Shown here: positions 7,650-51,053 of the stretch, piece by piece
Layout of the letters: the number at the start of each line of letters is the position of its first letter
Position numbering within the stretch: position 1 is the first letter of the stretch
Source: Cliona cf. orientalis
Lineage: Eukaryota > Porifera > Demospongiae > Clionaida > Clionaidae
Direction: 5' to 3'
Length of the DNA: 64,000 nucleotides
Assembly: GCA_963930775.1 (NCBI GenBank)
Contig: OZ005707.1
Span: 2,170,001-2,234,000, forward strand
Position numbers and translations under genes: made by a program
The notes under the pieces: generated by a model
What the model was told of the DNA's origin: nothing
Databases searched by the model: none
The model's input: only the letters and a program-made list of their open reading frames with translations

Positions 7650-10600
7650 ATGGAGCTGATATCGATAGTGATAGTCTGTTCAGTTGGTGAGTTATTATTT
7701 TATGTGTGTGTTCAATATGGACATCAACTATTGATACTCTATACCTTTGCATTAATTGTTACAGTATAAGAAATCCTCAAAATTAATGTGCTCTAATTAT
7801 AGTCATAATCATAATAACTTTCGTTAGTATAATATAATAATATCCTTAAATTTGTATCTCTGCCTCTAACAGTAAACACAGTGAGGGCAGCTACCTTACC
7901 TCCCGGGATCACTCTTGCAGGAGCCCGATGCTACTCAACACTGCTCTGTGATTCTAGTGCAGAGATTGGGTTTATGACAAACGTGGAGTGCTGTCTCCGC
8001 GAACCGCAGGGACTTGCCTATAATGTTCCAGGCAATGAAGAATGTGTCCCATGTGTATGTAAGTGAGAATCTAATATGCACAATTGAGTAGTACTAGTTT
8101 GTGCAGCAGTTCCGTAGAGCTATTGGTTCCAATTGAATTGTTTCAATAGTGTATGGCTGGATAAATGCTGGGAGTGTCCAACGAGTTCAAGAAGCAGGGC
8201 CTGGACAAGTGTTTGAAGTAGGGTACCTAAAAACTGGAACAGGGACACCGCCACAAATTGAATTGACTGTTGAAGATGTGGAAGGAACAGCAAGTATAAT
8301 AATATTATAATAATATGTAAAATAGCTGCCAACGGTACACGTAACACATAAGCTTATTTTATTTCTCGGTACTGTCACAGGGTTACTATAGTCATGCGAT
8401 TCAATTTTGCAGGAAGAGGGGCTGCATTTGATTATAGTGTTACTAACAACACGGTTTCTATTGCGCCAGGCAGTAACGATTTTGCCACTGTCACCGTTCG
8501 CGTCGATGGCATTGCTCTTGAACCAGATGAGATTTTTCAGCTGAGACTGGTCGCTAGTTCTCCACTGGTGGGAATATTCTGTTTGGATACACTGGAAATT
8601 ATCATCGAAGATGGAAATGGTATCTTATGTGTAATGATGCATTAATACTAGTTTGTGTCCAGGCTGCCAGTTTGATCTGGCAGACTTCAGTCTGCATTTG
8701 CCTCATCACTATATCCTTATCACTGCCAGCCCCATTTAATATTTCTATTCTCTTTCCTCTTTGTGCATGCTGTAAAGCAACAATAATAATAACTACGCAC
8801 TAATTACACACTAAATAGAAAATAAAATTGTTTTTTTCTGCTTAGTGTGTCCGCTTCTTGAGAAAAAAAAAATTTCACGGGGAGTTTGGGAGCACTAGGG
8901 GAGATAATTTTTACATGGACACGCAGAATGGGTCGAAACTAGAGATTTGACCTTTGAACTTACCCCATATTATGTTTGTATAGGAAGCCATGCATTTGCA
9001 TTTGCTGTTTCCCACCCACGCGCACATCAACGTTACGACCATTACCTACTTTGGTCAAAATTGATGTATAGGCTGCCTGCTTGCATTGTATGGCTCTACT
9101 ATGCATCCAGCTCAACTATGTGGTGGTTTTTGATAATTTTTTTCTGCTTAGTGTGTGGTCTCCTTGTAATAATAATAATAATAATACTATGTAGTAGAGC
9201 GAATTTTTTTTATTAACTGATGCGCATGCAGTTTGTGCATGTGCATCCCTGGCTGAGATGACAGGGACATGTACACTAATATTATTATCTCTTTTCACTC
9301 GTGCAGAGGTGAATATTCAACTGACTGAAGATGACTATCGTGGCACAGAAGCGGAGGGAAGCATTGGTATTGTGGTTAGCAAGGACGCTCGCATAGCATC
9401 CAATGTGAGCCTAATGGTGAGCCCTGTGGTGCTCTCGGAGGCAAGAAGGCTCGACAGGTTCCCAATGAATGTCGTACCTCCTGACGACAATGAAGGACGC
9501 TCGCCAGTTGATGCAGGTGAGAGAATGTACTGTGTACCTCAGTTTGCCAATTTAGCTATTATACAGTGTTTTATACATACTGGAGGTATTCTACCAATTG
9601 ACAATGTATGCTACATGTCACAATTTTAAATGGGCATGTGCTAGTGTAGGAAGTGTATTTTCTGTCGTTTGAACAAAGTGAATTAGACGGAAAATAAGCT
9701 CTCTAGCGCTAGGGCTCTGCATGCAGAATTGGGGGGGCGGGGCTTATGAGGGTGCATGTACATGTTGTGCATTCCTGAGTTGCTAGGTACAAGGATAGTG
9801 GCTATTTAAAGCAGGAATAGCGTGATGGTAGTCCTCTCTCAAGCAAGAACAGCAACTCTGCTACCTGGAAATTTCAAATTTCAAAATGGAAAATGCAAGT
9901 TGTCAAGTTATAATAATGTGGTATACGTAGACTATAGTGCATCCCTCACATGCTCCCTTTTCTATCCCTGCAAAGTCCCACCCCAGTTCAGGACCAGTGC
10001 AAACGACACGCCACCTAGGCAAGCTCCCAACCATGGAGGCTCCGGATGAAGATCAACATAGCTAGTCCTGGGATGCTATTTTAAGTTGGTTTTTTCCCCT
10101 CACAATTTTTCCTCACAGAGGTTTTTTAAGAGGGGTTTTTTTCCGTGGACACGTTGGCCACATGTCCTAAATAAATTATGTTTTAAGTTGGCCCATCCCA
10201 GTGTAGTTCTGTTACTGTACATGTGTATATCATGCTACGTATACCTGTTGAGCTATTGAGTTCTGTCAGTTTCTGTCAAAGCTGTTTGTGTGTCCTGTAT
10301 GTTGTGTGACGGACTCTGTGTGTTTTACGTTTCTCGCTGTTCATTGCCCCACAATTACCCAATTTATCCCAATTGAGAAATGTGTCCAATATCGCATGAT
10401 GCATGATGCATGCACACCTTTAGTGAGAGGATTTGTTTCTAGAAGATATTTCATGCATATGGTCTCCTTTCTCTTCTCCATGCAGATCTGAATGACTTTG
10501 ATGATACGGTTCTGACGATCACATTTCTAGCTGATGAAATCGCTCCAGTTAATGATATCCCACTCAGTATTCCAATCACCGATGATGCAACAAATGAAGC

Positions 10601-13600
10601 AAATGGGCAAGACTTTGTTGTGATACTCAACCTAACAGAATCCGTTAATCCTACTTCGATCAATTTGCCCAGGACCTCCTCACTCTGCCGAATAATCGAC
10701 AATGACCGTAAGTGAGAATCAATTCGGTTTGATCATCTATTCGCCTTTTATATGGCTGCTATGGTTTCTGAGAGGTGTGTGGGGGGGGGGGGGGGATGGT
10801 ATTTGTAGGAGTGGTGTGTAATGTCGTACAATACAATGACCTCAATTGCATTATATCATTTTCGTGCTGCAGCTATCATGATTGGTTTTGAGAGAGGAAT
10901 TAACAATTTTACTGAGCCAAGGTTTGATGAGGATGAATTTATTTATGTGGCAAAGGAAAACAACGTCATGTCTGAGCAGACGTTCAGGATTTCATTTCAG
11001 CGGACAGATTCAGTACCACAAGGCTCTGGCTTTGCAATAGCACAGGATGGACAAGACTACAGAGGAATATCTGTAGCATTTCAGCAAAGTTTTTTCCCAT
11101 TTCAGCAGCGCATCAGTATACCTTTCCAACTCTTGGCAGATACAGCACCTGAACCTACGGAAGCAGTTCAGCTTAGCCTCTCAACTCAGGACTCTCCCGC
11201 ATTTGATAGTGCCGATATGCTATTTACACGAACCTTTCTTGTGATTGAAGATGATGACAGTAAGATTAATCTAATATTGAATTTTGATATCGTAGCTACT
11301 ATCGTTATTAATTTTTATAGTTACTGTTCGAATTGGATTTGAGGAGACTGCTTATACTGTTAATGAAGAAGATGGCACCCAGGAAGTGTGTGTGCGAGTG
11401 TTTGTGCCAGATGATGAAGAGCCACTCGTCGCAGAGATCTCAGCAGTCATTGCTACTAGAGTTGGAACTGCTGGTATATCATAATTATTATCAGCTTCTA
11501 TTAATTTATGTACAAGAACTTCATTAAGTGTGTATAGTGTTGGTGCATGGTGCAAACAGTGACTTGTTGATGACTAGCGGCTACCACTTGATAATTATTA
11601 GATATACCCAGTACAAATGTACTTATGCTGGGGATTATTTGTAGACCGGTGCATAATAACACAATAGCATATAATATATATAATATACAATTCATACAAG
11701 AAAATAGTGGCCCATTGATGATCAATGCACATGTAGAGTCTCGTGTGTATTGATTATAGCAGTACCTTTTTATAGATGAGAGTGATTATACTCCTCTGAA
11801 CCCTAACTTCCTTGACGTGGTTCTAACGTTCAACGATGCAAACCGAAGGAGTTGCTTCAGTGTGTCGATCACCAATGATATTCTGGTTGAAGGATCAGAA
11901 CAGTTCTCCTTGGAGTTACTTGAGGACCCTTTTATGCCACCACCTATTCCAACTATGTTCAATGCTAGTTTGGCTACTGTCACCATCCTTGACCAAGATG
12001 GTAAGATTTAACCAACTTGTAGCATGTTTCAACTGACTGCTGTATACAGTAATTAAATTTTATTATTTCATGCAGAGGCCGTGATCGGGTTCCTTGAGAC
12101 CAACTATTTTGCTAGTGAATCGAGTGGGCTTGCCACTGTAGAGTTTGGATTGATATTCGGAGGAGTGCAGAGCAATGTTAATGTCCAACTAGGATTTAAT
12201 GAAGGAACTGCTCGAGGTATATTTTTAGCATTCATGTCAGCATTACCAATCGTTATAAAATTTGTGTGGTACAGATGTAGTCGACTTTGATAGCACTGGA
12301 GCAGTCTTCACATTCAATGCTTCCAGTGAGACGATGTATTCCTTCAATGTGTCGCTGGTGAATGATAACGTATATGAACTTATTGAGAACTTTAACCCTC
12401 AGTTGACCTTTGTTGAAGCCGCTAATCGAGTGACCATTGACCCTGGCTCTGCCCAAGTCCAGATCCTTGATGATGATAGTAAAATGTTTAATACTACTCC
12501 TGTATTTTTTGTGTCTATTTATAGTAACTGAGTAGGGATTCCCCTAGTATCTTAATATTTTCACTTTGCTTAATTTTCTCAACTATAGTTGTCACATTCG
12601 GTTTCACTCCTGATAGCTACTCAGATGTGGAGTCTGTTGGAAATGTGAGCCTTGGAGTCGGCTTTCTCAGTGGCAGCTTTGGAAGTGCACCAATTTCAGT
12701 ACAGCTCTTTCTTAATGCTGCCAGTGGTACTGCACAAGGTGAATAGCTCTATGCATGCAACATTCCCTTGATCATAATTATATATACTTAGCTATAAGGC
12801 CAGACCAATTTAATTTGTTGTTGCTCGGATATTGTGAGGTAAAAATTGGAGCGAGCGATCGAAAAAAAAAAAAAAAGAAGCAATTGATTGGGTGTGGTTA
12901 TAGACCACAATCTAATTAAGACAGACTAATGTGACTATCTAGGACCAGGAAATCAAGATAGAATACAAAAACCACTCTACTGTACATAAGCTCCACCCAA
13001 CTTAATTAAAATTTTTTTTTTTGTTTGCCCAAAAATTGGAGCGAGCGAATCCGTGCAACAACTTATTTAATTGGTCTGGCCTAATATTATTATGCATGAT
13101 GAATAAGTTGAGATGATAATGATATTCATAGCTATTGATCTCCCTCGCAGGCACTCCGGCAGCTGAGGCTGACTATGGATCTGTGATTGATCAACAGATC
13201 ACGTTCACTGAGTTCACTAGACTCCAACAGGTAGCAGTGGATATCGTTGACGACGATTTCACAGAGAACAGTGAAATGTTTGGAGCAACTCTGAGCAACG
13301 TTGTGGTGCTAGTCGATGGTGTGGAGCAAACTCTTGCTGCATCTGAGGCTAATAAGATAATAGTTCAACCTGACACTGCCAGTGTGGAAATATTGGATAA
13401 TGATGGTCAGTTTTATAGCAAATTAATGGTCAATCTGTACTCGTATGTGTAGCTGGGCTGTTGCAATTACCACAAGATGATGTGTGATCTAGGTTGTGTA
13501 CCATTGTATACCTGCAGAGAGTGTGATTGGATTCCGTCCAACAGAGTACAGTGCTTTTGAGAACCAAGGCGCTATCAATTTCACTATTGAGCTCGTTTCT

Positions 13601-15510
13601 GGTCAACTCAGAATAGACGTTCCTTTCAACTTCAGTACTGCAGATATTACAAGTCCAATGAACCGTGCTGAAGGTGAGAGAGAGAGAGAGAGAGAGGTTT
13701 CATAATATTATTCTTATTTCTTCTACAGCTGGTGCTGACTATACCCCGGTACCTGGCTTGGAGTTAGTGTTTAATGCCATGGTTACGGACGCATCAGTAT
13801 CAGTGAGTATTATTGACGATGGCGTCCTTGAGCTTGCCGAGCGGTTCAATTGTCTACTAACTTCTACCTCACTGCCGGCCAACGTGAGGCTGGATCCTGA
13901 TCTTGCAGTTGGCACCATACTGGAGGAGGGAGGTCAGTGAGTACAATGCAGCTACAAGCTCACACACACACACACACAAACTCTATTATAATATTATCCA
14001 CATCTATATAAGAAGCTTAAGCTTTGGTGAGGGAAGCTGTGATAAATTGCCTGCACGGCATAGATGTTTTAATACCTGATAGCATGTTTGCTGTCGACAA
14101 TGGTCATGTAAGCACAATAGATTCCTTATAGCACGCTTTAATTTGTTCTTGCTGGGATTGACCTTTGACATGTGCGATGCTTCAATGGTTATTGTATCTT
14201 GAGCTGTTGCAGCCATAACTAACTCTATTTCAATCACGGCCTCCCTGGCCTACACTACTACAGCTATTGTGATTGGCTGTATACTGCTGTGCAAACGCAC
14301 TGCGGATAATTAAATCCGTATATCCTTGTAAACTGTAGTATACTCCACATATCATCTTGTAGTCAAGTGAGTGTTGGCCAATAATTGGTCTAGGACAGCC
14401 CACCTGGGTACTACCCAGCTACAGTACTCACCAGTACTGGTGGGTTTCACAGTTTGTTTGAGTCAACCACTCAAATTTAATTATCCGCAGTGCGTTTGCA
14501 CAGTAGTATATGGAGTAGGATACTCTCCCTTCTCTTCCTATTATATACTCTTGATGTCGTCTATAGCGACCTATCAGCGAGTGAGTTTTATATTATTATT
14601 ATTGCTGACTGTGCACATTCTGGGGGATATTAAGGTTACTACTGTATAGTGTACTAGGTCTATCCATTGAATAGTCTATTTTTATGATTTCAGTTGAAGA
14701 TGCTGATTACTCTGTTCCTGCCGAGAGCTTATCGATTGGTCCATTCTCCCAGGCCAGTCGCAGAACCTGTGTCACTGTCAATATCAATGATGATGAGATT
14801 GTTGAGAATTTGGAATCGTTTTCAGCCATACTGGAGTCCGGTTCCAATACCCCAGACCAGCTGACTATCAGTCCTGGTACCACCACAGTCAACATTGAAG
14901 ACAATGATAGTATGTAGTGTAATTGTATAAATGTATGATTTATCTCTCTCCCCCTCCCTCTCTCCCTCCAGGGATTATAGTTGGTTGGGAGGAGACCAGC
15001 TATACTACGAACGAGGGTGATAATATGGTTGAACTCTGTGCAGTAATTTTATCACCAGCAATGCCAGCTTTAATCGATCGTGATCCATTCACTCTTACTC
15101 CAACCTGCCCTTCAGGCTCGGCCGGTAATTAAGAGGATAACCCTGTCATTATAGATATAATTAATCCACTATTAATTCTATTGAGCAGCATTGGGTGAGG
15201 ACTATAATGACTGTCCCTCAACAATTGGTCCGTTCAGCGGTGGCCAGCCTCGAGCTTGCATCAACGTTGGCATTATTGACAATCCAATTCCTGAGGAACC
15301 AGAGGACTTCACTGCTATTCTGTGGCCGTCCCCAGACCCTCTCATCTCACTAGACCCCAGCCGAAACGTGACTGTAGTTACTATTGTTGACAATGACGGT
15401 AAGATACATGTAGATATAATAGTGTATTTTAGTAAGTTAATTGCTCTGCCCCTGTAATGATTGAACTTAGCCTTGACCCCAATAAATGTATGATTTCTCT
15501 CTCTCACTCC

Positions 15511-15557
<47 letters not shown>

Positions 15558-17931
15558 GATTACGGTTGGTTGGGAGGAGACCAGCTATACTACCAACGAG
15601 GGTGATAATATGGTTGAACTCTGTGCAATAATTTTATCACCAGCTATAATCGATCGTGATCCATTCACTCTTACTCCAACCTGCCCTTTAGGCTCGGCCG
15701 GTAATTAAGAGGGTAACCCTGTCATTATAGATGTAATTATCCACTATTTATTGAGCAGCATTGAATGAGGACTATAATGACTGTCCCTCAACGATTGGTC
15801 CGTTCAGCGGTGGCCAGCCTCAAGCTTGCATCAACGTTGGCATTATTGATGATCCAATTCCTGAGGAACCAGAGGACTTCACTGCTATTCTGTGGCCGTC
15901 CCCAGACCCTCTCATCTCACTAGACCCCAGCCGAAACGTGACTGTAGTTACTATTGTTGACAATGACAGTAAGATAGATTCCTGGCTGCTACATTAATTT
16001 TGTTGTCATCATAGCGTATTGAATTTTAGTGAGTTAATTGCTCTGCCCCTGTAGTGATTGAACTTAGCCTTGACCCCAATAAATGTATGATTTCTCTCAG
16101 TTCTCCTTGGAGTTACTTGAGGACCCTTTTATGCCACCGCCTATTCCAACTACGTTCAATGCTAGTTTGGCTACTGTCACCATCCTTGACCAAGATGGTA
16201 CTAAGATTTTTTATTAACTTGTAGTACAATATTTACTGCTGTATACATGTATGATAATTTTGTTATTTCACGCAGAGGCTGTGATTGGATTCCTTGAGAC
16301 CAACTATTTGGCTAATGAATCGAATGGGCTTGCCACTGTAGAGTTTGGATTGATATCTGGACGAGTGCAGAGCAATGTCAATGTCCAACTAGGATTTAAT
16401 GAAGGAACTGCTCGAGGTATATTTTTAGCATTCATGTCAGCATTACCAATCGTTATAAAAATTTGTGTGGTACAGATGTAGTCGACTTTGATAGCACTGG
16501 AGCAGTCTTCACATTCAATGCTTCCAGTGAGATGATGTATTCCTTCAATGTGTCGCTGGTGAATGATAATGTATATGAATTTGTTGAGAACTTTAACGCT
16601 CAGTTGACCTTTGTTGAAGCTGCTGATCGAGTGACCATTGACCCTGGCTCTGCCCAAGTCCAGATCCTTGATGATGATAGTAAAATAAGTACTACTCCCG
16701 TATTTTTTATAGTAACTGAGTGGGATTCCCCTAGTATCTTAATTTTAAATGGAATAGTAATATATTCACTTTGCTTAATCTTTCTCAACTGTAGTTGTCA
16801 CATTCGGTTTTGCTCCTGATAGCTACTCAGATGTGGAGTTTGTTGGAAATGTGAGCCTTGGAGTCAGCTTTCTCAGTGGCAGCTTTGGAAGTGCACCAAT
16901 TTCAGTACAGCTCTTTCTTAATACTGCCAGTGGTACTGCACAAGGTGACTAGCTCTGTGCATGCAACATTAATATTCCCTTGATCATAATAATAATAATT
17001 ATGCATGATGCATAAGTTGAGATGATAATGATATTCATAGCTATTGATCTCCCTCACAGGAACTCCGGCAGCTGAGGCTGACTATGGGTCTGTGATTGAT
17101 CAACAGATCACGTTCACTGGGTTCATTAGACTCCAACAGGTAGCAGTGGATATCGTTGACGATGATTTTACAGAGAACAGTGAAGTGTTTGGAGCAACTC
17201 TGAGCAACGTTGTGGTGCTAGTCGACGGTGTGGAGCAAACTCTTGCTGCATCTGAGGCTAGTAGAATAATAGTTCAACCTGACACTGCCATTGTGGAAAT
17301 ATTGGACAATGATGGTCAGTTTTTATAGCAAAGTTATTAATGGTAAACCTGTACTAGTAAGCTTATGTGTAGCTGGGCTGTTGTAATTATCGCATTTCAG
17401 CGGCATATCAGTAAGCTTATACTTTTCCAACTACTGGCAGATACAGCACCTGAACCTACAGAAGGAGTTCAGATTAGCATTTCAACTCAGGACTCTCCTG
17501 CATTTGATAGTACCGATATTATGCTATTTACTCGAACCTTGAATTTTGATATCATAACTACTATCATTCATCTGGAGTCCACTAGCACTGCCATTCTTAA
17601 TGGCAAAATAATAGACTAAGTTAGGTCAATTACTATTATTATAAAATTCATTGTTTCCTTGCATACAGATAATACAGAGAATAACAGCTTTGCCACAGTG
17701 CTAGCAGTGGTACTAGTATGTATCCTAGTGCCCTTAATTTTGATAACGGCTACTATGGTAGTGATATGCCTCTTATTCAAGAAGGGGATGAACAGTTCAT
17801 TTCATCCGGTTCGTCGGCGCACCACTGCCCAACCCATTTGCTCTGTGATGAGGATACGGTGCTGGATTTGCTGCTCTCCTTGGATACCTCAAAAGCGAGC
17901 GGTCCTGACAGCATTTCTGCTAAAATGTTGA
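7650..17931 (+). CDS. Locus A: Calx-beta repeat type I membrane protein, tail replaced by LINE sequence
   Basis: Exons: 7650-7686 (signal peptide, MELISIVIVCSV), 7873-8058 (cysteine module), 8150-8293, 8413-8619, 9307-9516, 10486-10707, 10873-11259, 11321-11473, 11776-12000, 12076-12216, 12275-12478, 12589-12738, 13151-13405, 13518-13673, 13729-13932, 14694-14909, 14972-15124, 15189-15398, 15557-15700, 15759-15968, 16276-16416, 16476-16679, 16795-16944, 17060-17314 and 17669-17931. Every internal exon is a multiple of three and phase 1. Each Calx-beta domain is usually two exons: the first starts V/I-IGF and the second ends in TV-I-DDDG (about 12 domains). Exon 14694-14909 lacks its partner first half. 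The last exon gives LAVVLVCILVPLILI..VVICLLF and KKG, then runs into the LINE and stops at 17929-17931. Calx-beta domains bind calcium in known families. A surface adhesion or recognition role is inferred. Confidence 0.75.
7873..8058 (+). CDS. Cysteine-rich N-terminal module of locus A (exon 2)
   Basis: The pattern is C-x6-C, then ECC, GLAYNVPG and finally C-VPC (a CxxC end). It directly follows the signal-peptide exon. The same module, one phase-1 exon long, recurs at 25012-25170 (B), 32696-32857, 34770-34919, 39773-39943 (D) and 43249-43413 (E), where it reads CRASFNCAGGPGDDLGV..CC..AY..C-ACV. I cannot name a Pfam family for it. It is a family signature of this cluster. Confidence 0.7.
8796..9166. 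mobile_element. MITE-like element in a locus A intron
   Basis: It starts TTACACACTAAATAGAAAA and ends TTTTTTTCTGCTTAGTGTG, imperfect inverted repeats. The interior (GGGAGCACTAGGGGAGATAA, ATGCATCCAGCTCAACTATG) matches the units at 19.5-23.2 kb. It lies wholly inside the intron between 8619 and 9307 and has no open frame of its own. Confidence 0.7.
12798..13081. mobile_element. MITE with GGCCAGACCAATT terminal repeats, TAA target duplication
   Basis: The ends are GGCCAGACCAATTTAA and its complement TTAATTGGTCTGGCC, flanked on both sides by TAA (12795-12797 and 13082-13084). Subterminal AAAAATTGGAGCGAGCGA occurs twice. The paralogous intron at 16945-17059 lacks it, giving an empty-site comparison. 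A TAA duplication is of the PIF/Harbinger kind. Confidence 0.75.
14212..14510. repeat. Imperfect inverted repeat with a possible TM-coding exon
   Basis: GTGCAAACGCACTGCGGATAA near 14293-14315 is repeated inverted near 14478-14500, so the segment can fold back. After a possible acceptor (GAGCTGTTGCAG) near 14210, one frame reads TTTAIVIGCILLCKRTADN and then a stop. This looks like a short membrane anchor with basic stop-transfer residues. It could be an alternative last exon of locus A or chance coding within an element. No splice proof exists. Confidence 0.35.
14972..15968 (+). repeat. Tandem duplication of a two-exon Calx-beta unit
   Basis: Exon pair 14972-15124 plus 15189-15398 is repeated nearly identically as 15557-15700 plus 15759-15968, with the intervening introns and pyrimidine tracts also conserved. 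Both read WEETSYTTNEGDNMVELCA and PFSGGQP-ACINVGII. The second copy has lost three codons of the AMPALIDRD stretch. Lengths stay in frame, so the duplication adds one domain to the protein. Confidence 0.9.
16101..16197 (+). pseudogene. Truncated Calx-beta pseudo-exon
   Basis: This is the 3' part of a copy of exon 11776-12000 (LLEDPFMPPPIPT..). It has lost its 5' half and its reading-frame compatibility with phase-1 splicing. It marks the left breakpoint of the block duplication. Confidence 0.75.
16101..17314 (+). repeat. Duplicate of the 11.9-13.4 kb exon block
   Basis: 16101-17314 repeats 11905-13405 exon by exon and intron by intron (EAVIGFLETNY.., DVVDFDSTGAVF.., VVTFGF-PDSYSDVE.., TPAAEADYGSVIDQQITF). 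The 12.8-kb MITE is absent from this copy. The first exon is cut: 16101-16197 starts inside the older exon, is 97 nt (not a multiple of three) and would shift frame if spliced in, so it is probably skipped. The junction lies at about 16098, where sequence resembling the 15480 intron abuts the exon. Confidence 0.85.
17397..17600 (+). pseudogene. Decayed remnant of the 10.9-kb Calx-beta exon
   Basis: The sequence matches the second half of exon 10873-11259 (LADTAPEPTE..STQDSPAFDS). It lacks the 5' part and has lost the bases encoding the IEDDD end together with the splice donor. It sits between the last intact Calx-beta exon and the transmembrane exon and is presumably intronic now. Confidence 0.75.
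17669..17931 (+). CDS. Locus A transmembrane exon, read into LINE
   Basis: A phase-1 exon encoding a Ser/Asn-rich stalk, one long hydrophobic helix and a basic FKKG stop-transfer. At about 17789 the sequence changes from receptor to LINE. The open frame continues about 47 codons in a frame unrelated to the reverse transcriptase and stops at 17929-17931. The natural continuation (KGKKKEQPPEHIY..) is found at 23225. Confidence 0.8.
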
Positions 17932-20785: not shown

Positions 20786-21406
20786 AACTTGTTACACACT
20801 AAGTAGAAAAAAAGATACAAAATTAATTCATGGAGGAATTGGGAACACTTGGGAACGTAATTTTTACATGGGCACGCAGAATGGGTAGAAAAACGAGATT
20901 TGACATGAGAAAATTTTGATTCATGTCTTAGAATTAAAGTTACGGACCTTTAAAGTTTACCCATATGTTTGTATAGGAAGCCATGTGTTTGCAATGTTTG
21001 GAATCCCGGTGTGCGTTATTTAGAAAATCGCTAGGCCAGTACATGCATAGGCTACCATGCAGCTGGTATTGTATCCAGAGGCTTGCTGAATGGATGAAGA
21101 ATCAGCCACAACAGGAGCTCTCCCGTTTTTGCTGAGGTAGGTGGCATACAGCTATAGTTTTACATTGTGCATGCATGGATGTGTGGGAAAGTACATCGAG
21201 TTGAGAAACATAACTTTGTGCTTTTCCCCTAGCCTTGTGTGTGTGCTGTGGTGATTTTGAGTACTAGTAGGAAGTAACGTATTGCAGCGGCCACTGGTAC
21301 TGAACCTCAACACTGATCATATACTGAGTTTTCTAGGCTCTATTTGGAACATAGACGGCCTTGTTTTCGATTGTATGGGCATCCAGCTCAACTATGTGGT
21401 GGTTTC

Positions 21407-21865
21407 CAGGGGCGTAGCTAGCATAGGGCTCAGCGGGCTCGAGCCCCCCCTTTGTCTTCCCATGGTGGGCTCAGTGAGTGGGCCCACTGTCTATGGATAT
21501 ACAATAGCTTGGCCTGACAAGCTGAAGCTGCATGACAAACTATATAAAGTTTGTAACTAAAATGATACAGAACACTAAGGATAAGTTTCTATACTTACTA
21601 TTTTAAGCTCGTTCAGACACATATATAGATATAGCTGCTAAGCGAGGCAGCTACCACTCCAAGATACAAGAGTTCGAAAGGTCAAACGATGGGCGTGGTC
21701 GACTGCAGCACTATTATTATACTGTATTATAATAACGAGCAATTAACCATGGTCATGTGACATAATTAGTGGGCGTGGTCAATCGCAAAATTTTTTCGCG
21801 CGCTTTGCGCGCACTTCTTTTTTATACTCAGCCCCCCCTTTCTAAAAATCCTGGCTACGCCCCTG
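21407..21865. mobile_element. Nested MITE with CAGGGGCGTAGCTAG ends
   Basis: The ends are CAGGGGCGTAGCTAG and CTGGCTACGCCCCTG, inverted with one or two mismatches. GTTTC is repeated directly outside both ends, and the uninterrupted form GTGGTTTCTGGACAA can be inferred from the sister unit. The CAGGGGCG terminus is hAT-like. There is no transposase. Confidence 0.7.
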
Positions 21866-21908
21866 GTTTCTGGACAATTATTTTTTACAGTAATACTCGG
21901 GATGACTA

Positions 21909-24187: not shown

Positions 24188-24208
24188 AACATTTACACAC
24201 GGAGAAAA

Positions 24209-24625: not shown

Positions 24626-24728
24626 ATATCTCCACACACAACTATATACATGATGCAAACTTTAAAATAGAAGCAATAGTCTATGTAGATTGAACCTCGA
24701 GTTATCTACACCCCTACCGCGCATAGTT

Positions 24729-39635: not shown

Positions 39636-42612
39636 ATGGAGCTGATATCAACAATAGTGATAGTCTTTTCAGTAGGTGAGTTATATTAATAGAGTATCCA
39701 TGAGAGATCAGCTGCCCTTGAGTGCTACAAGTCTTAGTGCTTCATTGATTACATAATCTCTGCCAATTACAGTTGTTTCAGTGCGAGGTTGGGGACCAGT
39801 AGTGTGCAGAGCCAGTTTCAACTGTGCTGGTGGGCCAGGTGATGATCTAGGAGTGGCAGTGGATGGGGCAGGCTGCTGTCTGGTTATTTCAAATGCTATG
39901 GCCTATAGTTTCCAGGGCAGTGAGGACTGTATTGCTTGTGTTGGTGAGTTCTAGTAGGCCAGACCTTTTTGGATAATATTCCAGTGACTGTAATCTTTCT
40001 TTCTTCTCTTACATAAAAATTAATTCAGTTGTTGGATTCATCAACACCTCATTCTCTGGTCTGGAGCAGGAAACTGGTCACTCTGTGCCAGTGGGCTACC
40101 TGAAAGGTGGTACAATTGCTGTACAAAACTTGGTGTTCGATGTCAGAAGTACACCAGGCACCGCAAGTGAGTTCACTGTCTGTTCTGATTATTAAATTTT
40201 ATGAACAATCAATATAATATTGCAGGAGAGGGTTCCCAGTTTGATTATACAGTGAATACTTTGAGAGCGAGGGCTTTAGCTAATGGCCAAATTTCAAATG
40301 TGGTGCTGACCTTCCGTGTGGATTATATTGCTCAAGAACCTAACGAGACATTCACTCTTACACTGGATCCGCTTGTTGCACCAAATCCAAGAGAGGGATT
40401 ATTTTTCCGGAATTCTATTGAAGTGTCAATTAGAGACCGTGACAGTAAAGAGAATTATTATACAGATTGATGTCAGAGCTATACTACTTGTGCATTCAAA
40501 GTTATAGCTAGAGTTAATGTTTAGTATGAACACATGCATAATAATAATAATGTAATACTGGTAGAATGGTATTTCATGATTGTCCTCTTTTCTTAACAGA
40601 TGTTGAATTCACCTTTACTGAAGATGATTTTCGAGCCAATGAGCCTGACTCATCTAATCCTGCCACATTCCTACCTGTTTTGGTGTCCAAGTCTATACGA
40701 ATTGCTTCTCGAGTTGAACTAGTGGTTGTTCCTTTAACAGTTGATGAAGCTAGAGCCTCATCTCTTCCCCTTCCTCCAAATATCCCTGATGATGATCAGC
40801 GGTCTCCACCCTTTGCAAGTAAGAGAAGTACTGGGTGTATAATAAAGTGACCATAATAATATTATTATCATAACTATGATAACATTTAGACTTTGCTGAC
40901 TTTAATAACACTAACATCACCCTTGTCTTTGAGCCTGATGAGGATGCAGAGGTCATTGAAAAGAGTGTTCTTATTTTTGTTACTGATGATGCTATCAATG
41001 AAGCAATAGAACAAGTGTTTATTGCAGAGCTGATACTTGTGAGCAGTTCAGACTCTGCCATAGTTGATCTCACTAGAAGACCATCAACTCTGTGCAGGAT
41101 CGTTGATAACGATCGTAAGTTTAAATCAATACTGCTATGAGATCAACCTATCATATCATTGATACCACTATAGCAATCAGGATTGGATTTGAGCTGCCTG
41201 GCTACACATACACAGAGCCACAGTTTGATGAACTCATAGATCAAACTTATGTGTCACCAACTGGTCGACCTGAAAATGGACCTGTCTTTTTGCTCAAAGA
41301 AGATAATGTAATTTCAGAACAGACTTTTCTGGTTTCTTTCCAAGTCACAGATTCAGCTCATTTTGGCACTCAATCAGCTGCAGCTATTGATCAAGATTAT
41401 CGTTTTGCCGGACCTGGTCTAATAAGTGCAACTGAATTTTTTTCCCCTCCCAACAGAGAATTCCTTTTCCGTTTGAGTTGCGTGCTGATACTTTCCCTGA
41501 AGCAACTGAAGCATTTCAGGCTAATGTATCTCCAGAAAGTACTCGAGACATTGGTGGTGGGATAGTGGAGCAGTTTCCAACTTCCCTAAATCCTTCAATT
41601 TTGAGTTCTGAAATCTTCATTACCATTTTAGACAATGATCGTAAGTTATATTAAACTAATTGTAATATTTTTCATGTTATATACTATTCTTTCCTGTTTA
41701 GCTATTATTATTGGATTTACCAACACAAGCTACACTGTTAATGAAGATATTGGAACTCTGCAAGTTGATGTCCGAGTTCTCAATGTTCCTGATGAGCAAC
41801 CTCTACCATTTTCTGTAGAGCTTGTTATTCAGTCAGTGTCTGGATCAGCAAGTAAGTGAACAGAGCCAGTGTATCTCAAAATATTGATGTTGTATATTCA
41901 TTAGTTGGAGGAAGTGACTATCAAGAGATTATTGCACTAAACTTTGATGTATTCTTGACCTTCAATGATGCAAATCGTCAACGATCATTCAGTGTGACTA
42001 TCATAGATGATTCAGCTTTTGAGCTCAATGTTGAAGACTTCACATTAGAGCTGAGATTTGATCCATTTTCACTTGAGCCACCTTCAAATGTATTAATACT
42101 CTGTCCAAATATTTCAACCATTACAATCTTAGATGATGATGGTAAGATCGATATCTGAATAATTGTGTAGCTAATCATCAGCATTATCATTATAATACCC
42201 TATGCAGCTGTTGTGATTGGTTTCCTGAACACTTCCTACACTGTGAATGAGAATGATGGAGTAGCAGACATCCAGATTGGAGTGATCCGAGGCTCACTAG
42301 AGAGACCAGTGGCAGTCCGATTCTCAACTAATGCTGACTCTGCTTCTGGTAAATTGCATGAATTGAACATGTATACAAATTAAGTATGAAATTCTCCTCA
42401 TACAGATGGCAGTGACTACAGTGGCTTTGCTGGAATAGATTTTACATTTGATTCTGCCACCTTGACAGTCAATACTTCAGTTCCTCTCACAGATGATGCA
42501 ATATTTGAGCTGACTGAGCAGTTTGGTGCCAGCCTTGTTTTCCCTGGAGCTCCACCTCCCAGGGTAACCTTGGAACCAGACGCTGCACAAGTCACCATAC
42601 TGGATGATGATG
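39636..42612 (+). pseudogene. Locus D: 3'-truncated Calx-beta gene
   Basis: Exons 39636-39675 (signal peptide, MELISTIVIVFSV), 39773-39943 (cysteine module), 40029-40166, 40226-40444, 40600-40818, 40890-41114, 41174-41640, 41702-41851, 41905-42141, 42208-42348 and 42406-42612. All are phase 1 and multiples of three except 41174-41640 (467 nt), which has one T too few in a T run near 41440. No transmembrane or tail exon follows: after a GTCAGT donor the sequence becomes the upstream region of locus E. If the homopolymer is a sequencing error, the donor could splice to the E cysteine exon at 43249 (same phase) and make a D-E fusion. Otherwise it is a truncated paralogue. Confidence 0.7.
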
Positions 42613-43095: not shown

Positions 43096-43182
43096 ATGCA
43101 ATGGAGCTGATGTCAACAATAGTGATATTCTGTTCAGTTGGTTAACAGAATATCACTATTATCGACATCAGCTCCATTGCAT
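43096..43182. repeat. Inverted duplication of the signal-peptide exon of locus E
   Basis: Left arm 43096-43134 (ATGCAATGGAGCTGATGTC..) and right arm 43144-43182 are inverted copies over 39 bp with two mismatches, separated by 9 bp (CAGTTGGTT). The left arm is the signal exon. The fold-back replaces the usual GTGAGT donor with GTTAAC. Such snap-back copies arise by template switching during replication or repair. Confidence 0.9.
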
Positions 43183-46100
43183 AGAGATCAAAGAGTGCTC
43201 CAAATCTTAGTGCACCACCAATTAACTACACACCTTTTAAATTTTTAGTTATGTCCATGCAAGGTCAGGTAGCATGTAGAGCCAGTTTCAATTGTGCTGG
43301 TGGGCCAGGTGATGATCTAGGAGTGGCAGTGGATGGGGCAGACTGCTGTCTGAGCAACCCAAGTACTATGGCCTATACTCCCCGGGCCAGTGATGACTGT
43401 TTTGCTTGTGTTGGTGAGTTCTTAGAATGCCATTCCCTCTAATTAGATGATTATTGTTTCATTCTCACAGTTGTTGGATTCCTCAATGCCTCATTCTCTG
43501 GAATGGAGCAGGGACCAGATCACTCTGTGCCAGTGGGCTATCTGAAAGGTGGTACAATAGCTGGACAAAACTTGGTGTTTGATATCAGAGATACACCAGG
43601 CACTGCAAGTGAGTTCACTGTACTATGATGCATTGAATTTTATGAATTGTCAATTGCAGGAGAGGGTTTCCAGTCTGATTATACAGTGAATAGTTCGAGA
43701 ACAAGGGCTTTAGCGAATGGCCAAGTTGCGACTGTTCTGCTAACCTTCCATATAGATTCTATTGCTCAAGAACCCAACGAGACATTCACTCTAACACTGG
43801 TTCCAGTTATTCAACCAAATCCAAGAGAGGGGTTGTTTTTCCAAGATTCCATTCAAGTGACAATCAGGGACAGTGACCGTAAAGAGAATACTATAAAATT
43901 TAATTACTTGTATTCATAGTTAGAGTTAAGATCTGGTTTAATTGGGAGTAAGAACACATGCATTTGATATTGATGTAATATTGGTAGAAATGGTATTCCA
44001 TGTCATCTCTTTCTTAACAGATGTTGAATTTGCCTTCACTGAAGACGATTTTCAAGCCAATGAACCTGACTCATCTAATCCCACCACATCCCTACCTGTT
44101 AAAGTGTCCAAGTCTGCACGAATTGCTTCTCGAGTTGAACTAGTGGTTGTTCCTTTAACAGTTCAGGACGCTAGAGCCTCATCTCTTCCCCTTCCTCCAA
44201 ATATCCCTGATGATGATCAGCGGTCTCCACCCTTTGCAAGTAAGAAAAACATCGGGTACATAATTATAGTGAGGACGAATAATTACTTCAATCTAGGTTT
44301 GGCTGACTTTAACAGCACTAACATCACCCTTGTCTTTGAGCCTGATAAAGATGGAGAGGTCAATCAAATGAGTGCTCCTATTTTTGTTACTGATGATGCT
44401 ATCAATGAAGCAACAGAACAAGTATTTGTTGCAGAGCTGATACTTGTGAGCAGTTTAGACTCAGCCACAGTTGATCTCACTATACGACCATCAGCTCTGT
44501 GCAGGATCATTGATAATGATCGTAAGTTTGAATATTATTATTATTATTATGTTATTGTATATTCTATGCACTATAGCAATCAGAATTGGATTTTTGCTAC
44601 CTAGCTACACATACATGGAGCCACAGTTTGATGAATTTATAGATGAGTTTTTTGTATCGCCAACTGGTCGACCTGAAAATGGACCTATCTTTTTGGCCAA
44701 AGAAAACAATGTAATTTCAGAACAGACTTTCCTAGTTTCTTTCCAAGTCACAGATTCAGCTCCTTCTGGCACTCAATCAGCTACGATTGATCAAGATTAT
44801 CGTTTTGCAGGGGAAGGTCAAACAAGTGCAACTGAATTTTTTTTCCCCAATCAACAGAGGATTCTTTTTCTATTTGAGTTACGTACAGACACTTTTCCTG
44901 AAGGAACTGAAGCATTTCAGGCTAGCGTAGCTTCCGAAGATACACGAGAATTTGTTGATGAGAATGGGATACTGAGGGTGGAAACTTTTCCAGCTTCCTT
45001 AAACCCTGAATCTTTGGCATCCGATATCTTTATTATGATCTTAGATGATGACCGTAAGCTGTAAATTCATAATAATAATATTATAATATTATTATCATCT
45101 TATCTTTCCTGTTTTATAGCTATTATCATTGGATTCACTGACACAAGCTACACTGTTGACGAAGGAATTGGAACTTTCCAAGTTGAGGTCCAAGTTTTCA
45201 GCCCTCCTGATGAGCAGCCTCTACAAGCTACTGTAGAGCTTGTCATTCAATCAGTGTCTGAATCAGCAAGTAAGTGAACAGAGCCAGTGTAACTCAAGTA
45301 TTGATGCTGAATATTCAAATTCACTAGTTGGAGGAAGTGACTATCGAGAGATTCGTGTAGATTTCTTTGATGTACTCCTAATCTTTGATAATGATAATCG
45401 CCAACATTCATTCGATGTGATTATTGAAGATGATTCATTGTTTGAGCGTGATGTTGAAGACTTCACATTAGAGCTGAGATTTGATCCATTTGCGTTTGAA
45501 CCACCTTCAAATGTAATACTCAGTCCAAATGTTTCCACAGTTGAAATCATAGATGATGATGGTAAGATTTGAATTACCTTTATTGTGTAACTACCATGAT
45601 CATCAGCATTATCATTATAATACCCTGTGCAGCTGTTGTGATTGGTTTCCTGAACACTTCCTACACTGTGAATGAGAATGATGGAATGGCAGACATCCAG
45701 ATTGGAGTGATCCGAGGCTCACTAGAGAGACCAGTGGCGGTCCGATTCTCAACTAATGCTAACTCTGCTTCTGGTAAATTGAACATGCACACAAGTTTAA
45801 CTGATAAGTATGAAAACTGCTTAAATTCTCCTCATACAGCTGCAGATGGCGGTGACTACAGTGGCTTTGCTGGAATAGATTTTACGTTTGATTCTATCAC
45901 CTTGACAGTTGATGCTTCAGTTCCCCTCATAGATGATACAGCATTTGAGCTGACTGAGCAGTTTGGTGCCAGCCTTGCTTTCCCTGGAGCTCCACCTCCC
46001 AGGGTAACCTTGGCACCAGACACTGCACAAGTCACCATACTGGATGATGATGGTCAGTGCTAGATGAAAATGTTACTGCTGGATTGATAATAATATGCAT

Positions 46101-49100
46101 CATGTACCCAAGTTGTTTTTTTTTTAGTTCTGACATTTGGATTTGCGCCAATTGAGTACTCTATAAGTGAAAATATAGGATCTCTAGACCTTGGTGTCTT
46201 CTTCGTAAGTGGCAATCCTGGACAGTTTGTGCCACATCTGAATGCGTCTGCTGCTGACAGATCTGCCACTGGTATATTATATTGAATTAGTTTACACGAT
46301 TGTAGTAATACTACTATGTGATGTAAATACCCTAACTCACAGGCAGTGGCAGTGGTGGTGAAGCAGACTACACTTCTGTCATGGACCAGACTATCTCTTT
46401 CACATCTGGTAATAGAATGCAGGATCTCACTGTTCAGATACTATCAGATGACTTCACTGAATTCAATGAGACTTTCATGGCTGTGTTATCATTGGTATTT
46501 CTTGCTGATACTGCTGGTGGAGCAGCTATTGAGCTAACAGATCAGGAGAGAGCTAGTCTGATTGTAAACCCAGATATGGCCATCGTTAACATCCTGGATG
46601 ATGATGGCAAGTGATTTCACTCATACGCTTTGTATTAGTTACAGTGATGTTTTTCTCAACAGAGGCTACTATTGGATTTGTGGGTACTAATCTGAGCATT
46701 TCTGAGAATGGAGGAGAGCTTGAGTTTGAGATTGCAGTTCTTGATGGAACTCTGCGTTTTGATGTGCTTGTTAACTTTGCTACTGATTATGGACCTGCCT
46801 TAGGTATAGAACACTGCATTCATTCGCGATTGCAACTTTTGCATTTAGAATCCACTTTATTTATCTGCAGCTGGGTTAGACTATGAAGCAACCTCCACAT
46901 CTCTAACTTTCAATGATCAATTGAGACAGTCTGTTTTTGTTCCTATCATCAATGACACTCTTTTTGAAGATCCTGAAAACTTCTTTGGGCGTCTAAGTGC
47001 TGGCGGTGTTCTTCCACCAAATGTTCGCTTGGCTCCTATTGAAGCTATTGCCACCATTATTGATGATGAAGGTGAGTTGAACAACAATGTATTAAACCAT
47101 GTTAGCATAATTTGTGAAATACAGGTATTATCATTGGGTTTGATTCTGTTAATTACAATGCAAGTGAACCTGATGGTGTTGTAACTATGAGAGTGAGGCT
47201 TTTGGAAGGAAGCATTAGTCCTGGAAAAAATATCCTAGTCTGGCTCACCACAGCTGATGGCTCAGCTCAGGGTAAGCTCCTGAGATAAGTGTTAATTAAT
47301 CAGTTCATTATCATCCACCTCCCCCAATATTGGCCCACAGCACCTTCGGATTATGCTGCCATTTCTCAAGTTCTGACCTTCTCGAGTTCCGTGAATCTTC
47401 AAACTGTAAATGTAAACATTGAAGACGATGATCTCCTGGAGACTGATGAAATGTTCAGTGCATTGCTTGCTCTAGAGAATCCTGATACTGATAGTCGCAT
47501 TCAACTTCAACCTGATTTAGTGGACATTATAATTCTTGATGAAGATGGTAAGTGTTTAACTATAATACTAACTACGATCAAGAATCTTCACATTAAGTGT
47601 CCTTGTTCATGCAAAAATGAGGTGGCATCTGTAGCTGCAGCAGAGTTTTCATTCAGAATCTCATACAGCAGTAGCTCTTCCTATGCTCCTAGGTCTTAGA
47701 TCAATCTACATAATTAAAGCTAGCAAGCTTAAGGTACTTTCAATTATTATTATTATGCTGCCACTTGCAACCACTAGCTAGTCTGCTGGCTCATGGACAA
47801 ATCAGGGTGCTAGCCTTCATTGCATGCTATCTCCCTGCAGTAACATTGATCGGATTCAACACTGACAGCATTTCTCTAACTTCTCCCGAGTCCAATGGAA
47901 CTGTGGCATTGGTTGTAAGTGTCTTCAACAATATGACAATAGGTGAAGGATACACTATTCAAGTCAGAATCACTACAGCTGATAACTCAGCTAATGGTAG
48001 CTATATGCTAATGTAAAATTTGATTTCACGTACTTGCCTGCAGCTCCAGTGGATTACATTCCCATTTCAGAAAATATAACTTTCTCTAGTTCTTCAACAA
48101 CTCAAACTGTGCATGTATCAATAGTAAATGATGCACTCTTAGAGACTGATGAAGTATTTACAGCCTCTCTTTCACTGGAGGATGAGACTGATCTTGGTCT
48201 TATTCAGCTCAACCCTACCTCTGCTTCTATCACTATTGTTGATGATGATGGTAATGAGTCATTAGTGCAATACCTTATGTGATCACAGTAGTACTATTCC
48301 ATCAGATGCTGTGATTGGTTTTATACCTCCTGCTTACTCTGTTGCTGAGGGAATTGATCAATTTGCCAACCTTACTGTTCAATTGGTCTCTGGCCAGCTT
48401 GGACGTGACGTGATAGTGAACTTTGACACACAGAGTGGATCTGCAATAGGTATTTCTTTTAAACATTAATTTTACATGATGGAGATTACTGCATCATAGT
48501 AATTTTAGATGGCTTAGATTATTTAGCCGTTCGAAGTCGGTCACTATCATTTGGTCCCAGTGTGAGCTCTCACATAGTCCACATTGGAATATTCGATGAT
48601 GTCAGATTTGAAGAGGATATTGAAAACTTCACTGCCACTCTCTCCACTGACAATATTATTCCAAGACTTCATCTTGATGTTCAATTGGCTACCGTGGACA
48701 TCACTGACAATGAGAGTGAGTCTGTAATATTTCACACACATGATTGATTATCAGCTCTTTGAGAGTGGGTCTATGTTCATATAATTTTATTCCAGTTGTC
48801 AGAATTGGATTTCAAAGTGCACGGTACAATGTGAGTGAAGCCAGTACTATAGCTACAGTCATTACTATAGAAGCTTCGGGAGGCTTACTAGAGAGAGAAA
48901 TAATTGTCACCCTCTCCACTAATGACTCAACTGCTACAGGTAGCTACCTATTTTCATCACTATTACACAGATCTGAAATGATTTTTCCCTATTTCAGCCG
49001 AAGAGGACTATGTGGGTCTCAGTTACCATCTGACGTTTGACTCCTCAAATACCGTCAGTGTTGTACCCCTGACAATTATTGACGATGAAGCTGATGAAAA

Positions 49101-51053
49101 CATGGAAGCCATGTCAGCTTCTCTCTCCTTCCCTGGTTTAGCAACAGAGAGAGTGTTACTGGAGCCAAATACTACTGTGGTTCAAATTCGATGGTGAGAA
49201 TGAAACACCATAGCTATCCATTTTCTGATATTATTAACTGGCTTTGACCTTCAATATCAGATGCTGATATTGGATTTATTTCCTCACACTTCACTGTGAG
49301 AGAAAGTGACAGTGAGGTCAACATCCAAGTGGGAGTGCTATCAGGCTTACTACAGAAGGAAGTAACGATAAAATTCTCTGTCGCTGAATTGAATGCTATT
49401 AGTAAGTCATACCTATTTCACAATATTATTATTATTTAATAAGGTTCTTTTTTATACAGCTGGAGAAGACTACCATGAGCCACTATCACTTAAACTAACT
49501 CTAGATTCCACTACAAGTGCTCAGATTAATATTCCAATCGTAAATGATGACATATTTGAATTAACTGAATCCTTTCTCGTGGATCTATCACTGATTGGAG
49601 GATCATCATCTCATAACTCCACTGGAGTTCTCATCTTAGATGATGATGGTACTGCATATGAATGTCAGATACACAATGTCCAATTTATTTTACTGTAGAG
49701 CTTGTGTTTGGATTCAGTCCTTCAAAGTATGAGATACATGAGGGTGATGGATCTGTCATAATTAAAGTGATCTTTTTTCAAGGAATTCCTGGCGACTATC
49801 AGCCTGTAGTTCTCATGTCAATACACAATGGGACAGCAACAGGTTAGAAGATTTTTACAGAATATAATAAAGTAAATGACTTCTTTACTTCAGAAGGTGA
49901 AGACTTTGGTGGCATAGCATCTTCAGAAGTCACTTTTACTGCTGGAAACCGTGTCAATAGTGTGACCATAACCATCATGCCCAATAAATCCACTGAGAGT
50001 GCTGAAGAGTTCACCATCACACTGGACAAGATCATCTTACTCAACAGACTGAATCTCTCAGAAGAAGAAAGAGCTCGCCTCGTACTGAACCCTGGAATAG
50101 CAGTTATCAAAATCATAGATGATGATGGTATGTTCAAAGAATGATATTGGCCATGATTTATTTTACAGATTAGTCTTAACACTCTGGCAGTGGCTGCGAT
50201 TGGTTTCTTCAACACTAATCTCACCATCTTTGAAGGAGGTGAAGTTAATTTCACCATTGGAGTTCTGCAGGGATATTTAGACACAATGGTGACCATTTTG
50301 TTTACAGCAGAAGCATCAAGCGCACAAGGTAACCAACCGACTAAAATTAATAATACAGTACAGCGCATAAAAATTTTATGTCCACTTTTAGCTGGCTTGG
50401 ACTATACTGAGACCTCTAAGCTACTTAATTTCACTGGAGACTCTATGCATGTGGTATCCATCCAAATCATTGATGATGGAAACCCTGAGCCTTCAGAGAC
50501 ATTCCTAGGCCAGTTAAGCAGTGCTGATGGAGTGATAATTCCACCAAATGTTCTTCTCCAACCCAATCGAGCCACTGCCACTATCATCAATGAAAATGGT
50601 ACGCTTATAGAACTATATAATAATATTATTATGTGTGACTCAAATAATTTATTATTCTGTACAGATCTCCCTACTGATTCTGCAGAGAATCGTAGCACCA
50701 TCGATATCACCGTGCTAATTGTGGGGCTGGTATCCACTTTAGTAATTTTTATCCTGCTTTAAGTTACAGTTTTTATAATAGTGGTGTGCTTTGTATTTAA
50801 GAAGAAGAGGAGAAAGAGCCTACATCTGCAAGAGCATATGTATGAGTCGGTCTCGCAGCCACCAGGCACACTTGTCACCTTCTCAGAACCATCAAAGCTC
50901 GACACTGACTCTTTGTATGACGAAGTCACGAAGACAAGTTCTTGTAGCACTGCCACTCAGTTTGAGCTGACAGATAATAAAGCTTATTGTAGTAGCTCCT
51001 CCAAGCTACCTGCAGAGGAGGATGAGGCAGCCCCAGGCACAGACCCAGAGTGA
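43101..51053 (+). CDS. Locus E: Calx-beta repeat receptor, most complete member, stop in TM
   Basis: Thirty exons: 43101-43137 (signal), 43249-43413 (cysteine), 43471-43608, 43660-43878, 44021-44239, 44297-44521, 44577-45053, 45120-45269, 45328-45561, 45633-45773, 45840-46052, 46128-46271, 46343-46606, 46663-46803, 46871-47071, 47125-47271, 47341-47547, 47841-47996, 48044-48250, 48306-48449, 48509-48715, 48796-48939, 48998-49193, 49261-49401, 49460-49648, 49699-49842, 49894-50127, 50191-50328, 50392-50598 and 50665-51053; about 1,900 residues and 14 Calx-beta units. 46606 uses a GC donor (GCAAGT). Problems: weak GTTAAC first donor; exon 48998-49193 is 196 nt and ends QIRW instead of I-DDDG, shifting phase; TAA at 50760-50762. 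Domain-like second halves end TITILDDDG or similar. It would be a surface or, as written, secreted or short-anchored receptor. Confidence 0.7.
50665..51053 (+). CDS. Locus E transmembrane and tail exon with in-frame TAA
   Basis: Frame: DLPTDSAENRSTIDITVLIV, GLVSTLVIFILL, TAA (50760-50762), VTVFIIVVCFVFKKKRRKS, then EHMYESVS, SLYDEVT, DNKAYCSS and an acidic end EEDEAAPGTDPE. The same frame continues across the stop, so only one codon separates an intact helix and tail. An intron explanation would need a 34-nt intron. The stop leaves a shortened hydrophobic C-terminus. Confidence 0.8.

Follow-up and report, generated by a model that had tools for sequence, protein, structure and literature searches.

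Introduction

Do the Calx-beta arrays clustered in one stretch of a sponge genome belong to membrane-anchored receptors with a tyrosine-bearing signalling tail, and can those receptors still be made? The stretch, referred to here as the window, comprises 64,000 nucleotides of the forward strand of Cliona cf. orientalis (assembly GCA_963930775.1, contig OZ005707.1; C19:2170001–2234000, where C19 denotes the window's contig). Sponge aggregation factors reportedly have Calx-beta core proteins, for example in Amphimedon and Clathria, as Grice and co-workers are said to have described in 2017. A sequence-only reading of the window had proposed that three of its Calx-beta loci (A, C and E) end instead in a transmembrane helix and a tail with three conserved tyrosine motifs, and that they form a rapidly duplicating cluster of candidate recognition receptors. 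We followed this proposal through the genome (216.8 Mb in 149 contigs). The gene models indicate that the genome encodes a duplicating family of Calx-beta proteins that carry a membrane helix and a tail with tyrosines, and that at least one member looks intact, whereas the three tail copies of the window itself are broken.

Overall structure of the family

A search with the tail of locus E located 11 tail places in the genome (E values up to 1, with locus C itself found only at 0.135) and an additional truncated helix exon at C1:1194477 on contig C1. In six of these 11 copies a single terminal exon, free of interruptions and entered through a phase-1 acceptor, encodes both the helix and the tail: P216 (C19:216500), P240 (C19:240593), P2025 (C19:2025821) and one copy each on contigs C7 (C7:6536584), C10 (C10:3018109) and C1 (C1:1246384). 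The other five are A, C and E in the window, P233 (C19:233280), the tail of which is open and ends at NTAS, and P2095 (C19:2095422), which diverges past the first tyrosine. No relatives of the tail were found in the plasmids, GTDB genome contigs and viral contigs searched. The P240 tail gave no significant sequence match in the PDB and no Pfam family above the cut-off; its best Pfam score, to an SHP2-interacting adaptor family, was 14.8 bits where the cut-off is 27.6.

P240 (C19:249282–240590), which lies 1.9 Mb from the window on the same contig, is the one copy of the 11 that was modelled whole. Its 24 exons are joined at phase-1 junctions throughout and encode 1,582 residues without a stop; 22 of the 23 introns are GT-AG and one is GC-AG, and 20 measure 45–132 bases. 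The predicted protein consists of a signal-like start, a cysteine-rich module, 11 Calx-beta units, a membrane helix and a tail of ~80 residues. Pfam assigned Calx-beta a score of 467.7 bits in nine stretches, versus the 11 units counted by exons, and returned nothing else above the cut-off, although a domain outside Pfam would be missed. Aggregation factors are secreted and not known to have a membrane anchor, whereas in the P240 model a single last exon encodes both a hydrophobic helix and a tail; extra domains specific to aggregation factors were not found above the cut-off in P240, in a search that reaches Pfam domains only. Our own gene finder merged neighbouring genes, even with stricter settings, and retraining made it predict false exons of very small size; therefore only those of its phase-1 exons that were verified against paralogues were used.

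The Calx-beta exons of the window proved to be genuine, as had been proposed. PF03160 scored above the Pfam cut-off in five of ten window open reading frames tried (a sixth fell below it), and a profile built from the window and iterated on it gave 47 matches with E < 1e-3, all of them on the plus strand. The units are mostly encoded by two exons, and the introns are of phase 1 in the models that were examined exon by exon.

Conserved sites of the tail

Motif retention was scored in a ten-row alignment of the tails, and two of the three proposed motifs stood. Tyrosine 1 is present in all nine rows that hold its column, and also in the other frame of locus C and in the truncated copy L018; the surrounding juxtamembrane site reads E-[HN]-x-Y-[DE]-S-[VI], with the acidic residue at +1, serine at +2 and valine or isoleucine at +3 kept in all nine rows. 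The third motif, originally described as AYxS, is likewise kept, although it is better read as N-x-A-Y: the asparagine and the alanine occur in ten of ten rows and the tyrosine in nine, within a distal constrained site F-x-[LVF]-x-x-N-x-A-Y. The second motif did not hold up as a conserved element, as YD[EK]V occurs in seven of the ten rows and is absent from the C7 and C1 contig copies and from P2025. Tyrosine 2 fits the consensus of the immunoreceptor tyrosine-based inhibitory motif (ITIM), [IVLS]-x-Y-x-x-[LVI], in the forms SLYDEV and LDYDEV, yet it is the one missing from those three rows; the kept tyrosine 1 has histidine or asparagine at −2 and does not fit. The spacing of the immunoreceptor tyrosine-based activation motif (ITAM; two YxxL/I separated by 6–8 residues) is absent, with at least 20 residues between tyrosines 1 and 2. 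The asparagine at −3 to a tail tyrosine that defines an NxxY site is found in the family tail.

The ratio of non-synonymous to synonymous substitution rates (dN/dS) is 0.28–0.72 across all 15 pairwise comparisons among the six intact helix-and-tail exons (helix included), which places the tails under purifying selection; comparisons with the tail of C, read in a wrong frame, were left out. Because dS approaches or exceeds 1 in several pairs (1.04 for P240–P2025 and 1.09 for P240–C10), the motifs have been kept against much neutral change. The copies are duplicates and their likeness is therefore not independent; even so, the retention of tyrosine 1 and of N-x-A-Y among copies at this distance goes beyond chance. 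The close pair P233–A has a ratio of 0.84, as would be expected if those copies are decaying.

The tail exon as a phase-1 cassette

The same helix-and-tail exon is a phase-1 cassette, and one copy of it now stands downstream of Ig exons. At L034 on contig C1 (C1:1241998–1246671), Ig exons precede it on the same strand and in the same phase; an Ig family scored above the cut-off in three of the five exons tried (two weak), and the 10 kb retrieved around C1:1246384 yielded no Calx-beta exon. The last Ig exon ends in phase 1 at C1:1245738, ~560 bases ahead of the tail exon. Because its donor is weak, the joining of the Ig exons to the helix-and-tail exon is likely rather than proven.

N-x-A-Y also recurs in tails outside the family. 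L037 (C19:2035488–2037900), found by its position just upstream of P2025 and not by likeness, encodes cysteine modules of similar pattern, a Ser/Thr/Pro-rich (mucin-like) stalk and a helix, with N-x-A-Y at four of its seven tail tyrosines besides other tyrosine motifs. Its helix and tail are in different frames; the copy at C7:424.9k (L057) has both in one frame. A search with the L037 tail gave 29 matches (E up to 0.1), most of them on C7:261–454k and at C19:2.10M, and six of the seven weakest-matching places (C12:7.69M, C1:3.47M twice, C7:543k, C1:7.19M and C15:6.89M) carry 2–5 N-x-A-Y each, although these six were found with an N-x-A-Y-rich query and are therefore not independent evidence of enrichment. 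L037 and the copies on C7:261–454k represent a second clustered receptor-like family, the examined copies of which carry at least four N-x-A-Y per tail. Among open reading frames of at least 100 residues in the window and in fetched loci of at least 5 kb, many of them retrieved because of their tails, 19 of 1,356 tyrosines belong to an N-x-A-Y, and 17 of these 19 lie in such receptor-like tails. Its recurrence across unrelated receptor-like tails suggests a common reader protein. At L052 (C1:3474751–3475450) a tail is built of repeated TKDNVAYSRS-like units.

Copies in the window

The three motifs lie in loci A, C and E where they had been placed, at window positions 23253, 38674 and 50832 (EHxY[DE]), 23325, 38747 and 50916 (YDEV) and 23385, 38801 and 50982 (AYxS), respectively, in tails that stand behind Calx-beta exon arrays (23217–23414, 38674–38854 and 50763–51050). 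The proposed ends of the cluster also agree with the models, with a start exon of locus A at 7650 that recurs in paralogues and a locus E tail that ends at 51053. The reading of A, C and E as genes that run through to a helix and tail was not confirmed, since each copy carries lesions: in the one assembled haplotype, none of the three tail copies in the window is intact.

All of the window's Calx-beta loci are on the plus strand. Locus A begins with a start exon that encodes a short hydrophobic peptide and has a phase-1 donor (7650–7689), within a block common to D, E and the paralogous starts. A cysteine-rich N-terminal module exon (7873–8058; C..C..CC..LAY..EEC..C), recognized by comparison with P240, and a Calx-beta exon array (8413–17314), defined by PF03160, the window profile and exon models, follow. 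The first half of the terminal exon, with stalk and membrane helix, lies at 17669–17786; it reads ..ENNSFATVLAVVLVCILVPLILITATMVVICLLFKKG and is cut after ..LLFKKG, where the match ceases. Loss of the A helix was considered and rejected, as this half is present. A retrotransposon-like insertion of ~5.4 kb (17787–23220, ends approximate, no strand assigned), with two reverse-transcriptase-matching frames, other repeats and an A-rich 3′ end, splits the exon between its helix half and its tail half. The tail resumes at ~23220 behind an A-rich run and, with its stop, occupies 23217–23417 (EHIYDSV, LDYDEV, KNTAYGS), although its initial A-run may be part of the insertion; the residues directly before the tail derive from a dispersed repeat (of 34 matches in the genome, 24 extend over that part only).

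Locus C has two parts. The first (part C1, a label distinct from contig C1; 32731–34496) contains a cysteine module and Calx-beta exons; no start exon or tail of its own was found and it may continue locus B. The second (part C2; 34796–38519) contains a cysteine module and a Calx-beta array, the last exon of which has lost its donor and enters TAA TGA (38520–38525) where the paralogues carry the donor. The helix and tail follow at 38540–38857 in two frames, with one extra base after EHDYE (~38690) that shifts YDEV into a different frame. Locus D (39636–42612), defined by exon models and paralogue start exons, has a start exon, a cysteine module and Calx-beta units, and neither helix nor tail was found between it and E.

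Locus E (43101–50598) is collinear with P216, with a start exon with an altered donor, a cysteine module and a Calx-beta array, in which an 8-nucleotide deletion near 49188 relative to P216 breaks the phase at an exon end. Its stalk and membrane helix (50665–50762) are terminated by an in-frame TAA (50760–50762), behind which the tail frame continues with EHMYESV, SLYDEV, DNKAYCS and TGA (50763–51053). Both the deletion and the stop are absent from P216 and P240. A small intron splitting the E helix was also considered and rejected: no frame-keeping pair of donor and acceptor was found, and the site is free of introns in P216 and P240. A GC-AG intron lies at the same place in E (window ~46608), P216 (C19:220926) and P240 (C19:243393).

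We think it probable that loci A, C, D and E are simply pseudogenes and make no product, as the lesions in the three tail copies are independent; this would be compatible with a receptor function of the family. Set against this, truncated secreted or tail-less membrane products are possible for D and E, and the lesions are known from one assembled haplotype.

Duplication and selection

The proposed duplication of the cluster is real, as seen in shared DNA blocks: the 25 best blocks common to the window and C19:140–260k have 76–93% DNA identity. P216 matches E over all 28 ectodomain stretches tried and provides the one clean one-to-one comparison, with an ectodomain dN of 0.092, a dS of 0.173 and a ratio of 0.53; the first stretch, a 30-residue piece of the cysteine exon, is probably in the wrong frame and adds eight of the 341 non-synonymous changes. 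By rounded per-exon counts these changes number 197 in 704 codons of the membrane-distal exons 2–11 and 137 in 1,000 codons of the proximal exons 12–28. For the tail of the same pair the ratio is 0.52 (0.054/0.105). Five other ectodomain comparisons, which mix in non-corresponding units, gave 0.42–0.50, and that of A with P216 was saturated. With ratios of 0.53 and 0.42–0.50, no gene-wide diversifying selection is seen.

Comparison with known receptors

The engulfment receptors CED-1, Draper and MEGF10 are single-pass proteins whose tails pair an NPxY motif (PTB) with YxxL (SH2). The present family resembles them in this pairing of motifs and differs in its ectodomain (theirs is EGF-like) and in having N-x-A-Y in place of N-P-x-Y. 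Precedents for an NxxY site exist in proteins with unrelated ectodomains and tails: a passage on integrin beta tails describes NxxY bound by the PTB domain of Dok1 when phosphorylated (PMC4479986), and one on the inhibitory receptor CD200R describes an NPxY motif in which the tyrosine is conserved and the proline is not (PMC8007030).

With the aggregation factors of sponges the family shares clustered, duplicating genes with arrays of extracellular Calx-beta units; it differs from them in the helix and conserved tyrosine tail behind the array and in the cysteine-rich module before it. Another study lists two Calx-beta genes whose expression fell when a sponge was treated with microbial molecules (PMC6208332). 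The family tail is not described in the literature passages on Calx-beta in Porifera that were covered, which is not a claim that the family is unpublished, and no literature that pairs Calx-beta with transmembrane, SH2 and sponge was found.

Proposed function and alternatives

We infer for the family a surface location, ligand binding, phosphorylation, docking partners and a biological role along the following lines. The Calx-beta rod would contact a ligand or another cell; the resulting clustering would let Src-type kinases phosphorylate the tail; site 1 would dock SH2 proteins (or AP2) and the N-x-A-Y site PTB proteins; and docking would yield a signalling or engulfment response, as in receptors that pair YxxΦ with NxxY. 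As the tail cassette also lies behind Ig exons, unlike ectodomains may feed one output. The explanation we favour, by a modest preference, is that these are recognition or phagocytic receptors that signal through YxxΦ (SH2/AP2) and N-x-A-Y (PTB), and that the window belongs to a tandem cluster, dead in part, of genes for type I single-pass receptors of very large size. It draws on the P240 model, the six copies with an unbroken helix-and-tail exon, the constraint and motif retention of the tails, the N-x-A-Y of other tails and the Ig exons in phase with the tail exon on contig C1; SH2 domains, moreover, are abundant in the genome (103 matches), and PTB domains of the PID type are present. With these domains, the precedents for NxxY sites and the pairing of YxxΦ with NxxY in engulfment receptors are the grounds for favouring a receptor with two docking sites. 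Uptake is the main rival.

Several observations weigh against this explanation. Tyrosine 2 is not conserved. Matches to PTB domains of the PID type are few, with six in the genome. All three tail copies of the window are broken, P240 is the only one of the 11 copies with a whole model, P216 is without the usual start codon and the C7 and C10 copies appear to carry ectodomain lesions, and thus the family may be mostly dying. The predicted start peptide, a putative signal, is short for a signal peptide, the Ig-to-tail joint on contig C1 depends on the weak donor, and the ectodomain comparison of E with P216 gives no sign of gene-wide diversifying selection. A structure model of a single-exon Calx-like domain was poor (mean predicted local distance difference test score, pLDDT, of 58) and had no significant structural match in the PDB, the best Calx-beta entry being at rank 4 with E = 0.31.

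An uptake or sorting receptor, for scavenging or for the capture of food or symbionts and not for signalling, would bind AP2 through YxxΦ and Dab/ARH-like PTB adaptors through N-x-A-Y, with no need of phosphorylation. The two kept sites correspond to the pair of tyrosine-based signals classically used for uptake, and the unconserved site, YDEV, is the one that most resembles an SH2 ligand; NPxY motifs mostly mediate trafficking, according to PMC8007030. The residues kept around site 1 in nine of nine rows nevertheless exceed what AP2 needs, and PID-type PTB matches are few (six) against 103 to SH2, although a six-frame search without introns counts too few of both. We regard it as unlikely, while giving it serious weight.

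That the cluster is an allorecognition determinant, a self/non-self locus with polymorphic ectodomains and tyrosine tails by analogy to Alr of Hydractinia or fuhc of Botryllus, seems improbable. Intact and broken clustered copies, shared tails, membrane anchoring and tyrosine motifs would suit it. The relevant passages report a similar layout for Hydractinia Alr1/Alr2, clustered single-pass receptors with intact genes among many likely pseudogenes (PMC11067881), tyrosine motifs in Alr tails and, in the type I FcoR receptors of Botryllus, tails with an ITIM, a hemITAM or a bare Y-x-x-I/L/V (PMC12065747); a review links aggregation factors to allorecognition and ties that of Amphimedon to Calx-beta aggregation factors (PMC10815962). 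The ectodomains differ, however, being of Ig type in Alr and of Ig/sushi type in FcoR and Calx-beta in most copies here, with only the contig C1 copy behind Ig exons, and the present tail lacks ITAM spacing and has N-x-A-Y as its best-kept motif. Ectodomain dN/dS is below 1, and broken copies in one reference haplotype are expected of any fast-duplicating family.

Secreted matrix proteins of the aggregation-factor type as the functional products, with the helix-and-tail exon a relic being lost, are very doubtful. In favour of this reading, breakage or truncation affects five of the 11 tail copies, D and B yielded no tail, and scanning the minus strand of C19:140–200k, which holds long Calx-beta arrays, revealed no helix-and-tail exon. 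Against it, six tails are open and constrained, P240 reads through and, on contig C1, the tail exon persists downstream of another kind of ectodomain.

Neighbouring genes and genome context

Locus B (25193–32581), defined by Pfam, the profile and exon models, encodes an IgGFc_binding domain, Calx-beta units, one fn3 domain and further Calx-beta; the genome-wide tail search found no tail of the receptor family there. In Halichondria panicea, IgGFc-binding and Calx-beta are likewise both named in a legend on pattern recognition receptors in PMC8242945. The gene with IgGFc_binding, Calx-beta and fn3 (window 25005–34513) has a near copy ~2 Mb away at C19:214629–204596 with 86–92% DNA identity. A small hydrophobic-protein gene is duplicated beside the receptor 3′ ends (window 24140–24625 and 51272–51691), the second copy apparently frameshifted; the first has no Pfam match, and the duplicated blocks take in the gene. 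Downstream of the cluster lies an Ig-domain gene on the opposite, minus strand (window 56258–58230). At C19:144–196k (L020–L025) Calx-beta exons occur in tandem by the dozen, with even spacing near 157–166k.

The Calx-beta repertoire of the genome is very large (at least 165 matches, with 150 of 973 candidates scored), and alpha-catenin, vinculin, SH2, PTB and Ig genes of animal type are present. Short introns, this repertoire and the IgGFc/Calx-beta domains (as in the legend in PMC8242945) fit a sponge. No silicatein was found among the five cathepsin-like genes examined out of 116 matches, and a vinculin comparison did not single out 6bfi, an entry for a sponge vinculin. Two arrays of cathepsin-L-like genes, each gene one open frame, lie at C16:190–198k and C16:4848–4863k.

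Implications

Calx-beta proteins are candidates for cell and self recognition in sponges, yet they are extracellular (PMC10815962), which raises the question of how contact is reported inside the cell. Named genes for that question come from this membrane-anchored family, in which Calx-beta arrays precede a constrained tyrosine tail, and from the recurrence of the tail behind Ig exons. A bolder and rather tentative reading, to which we give a small share of belief, is that one phase-1 helix-and-tail cassette was shuffled onto unrelated ectodomains (Calx-beta rods and Ig stacks) in an early-branching animal, with a lineage-specific N-x-A-Y code, present once in the tails here and two to six times per tail elsewhere, as a common phospho- or PTB-read output. 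If so, the family would represent a previously undescribed class of recognition receptor and might supply the membrane partner that aggregation-type recognition through Calx-beta proteins has so far lacked.

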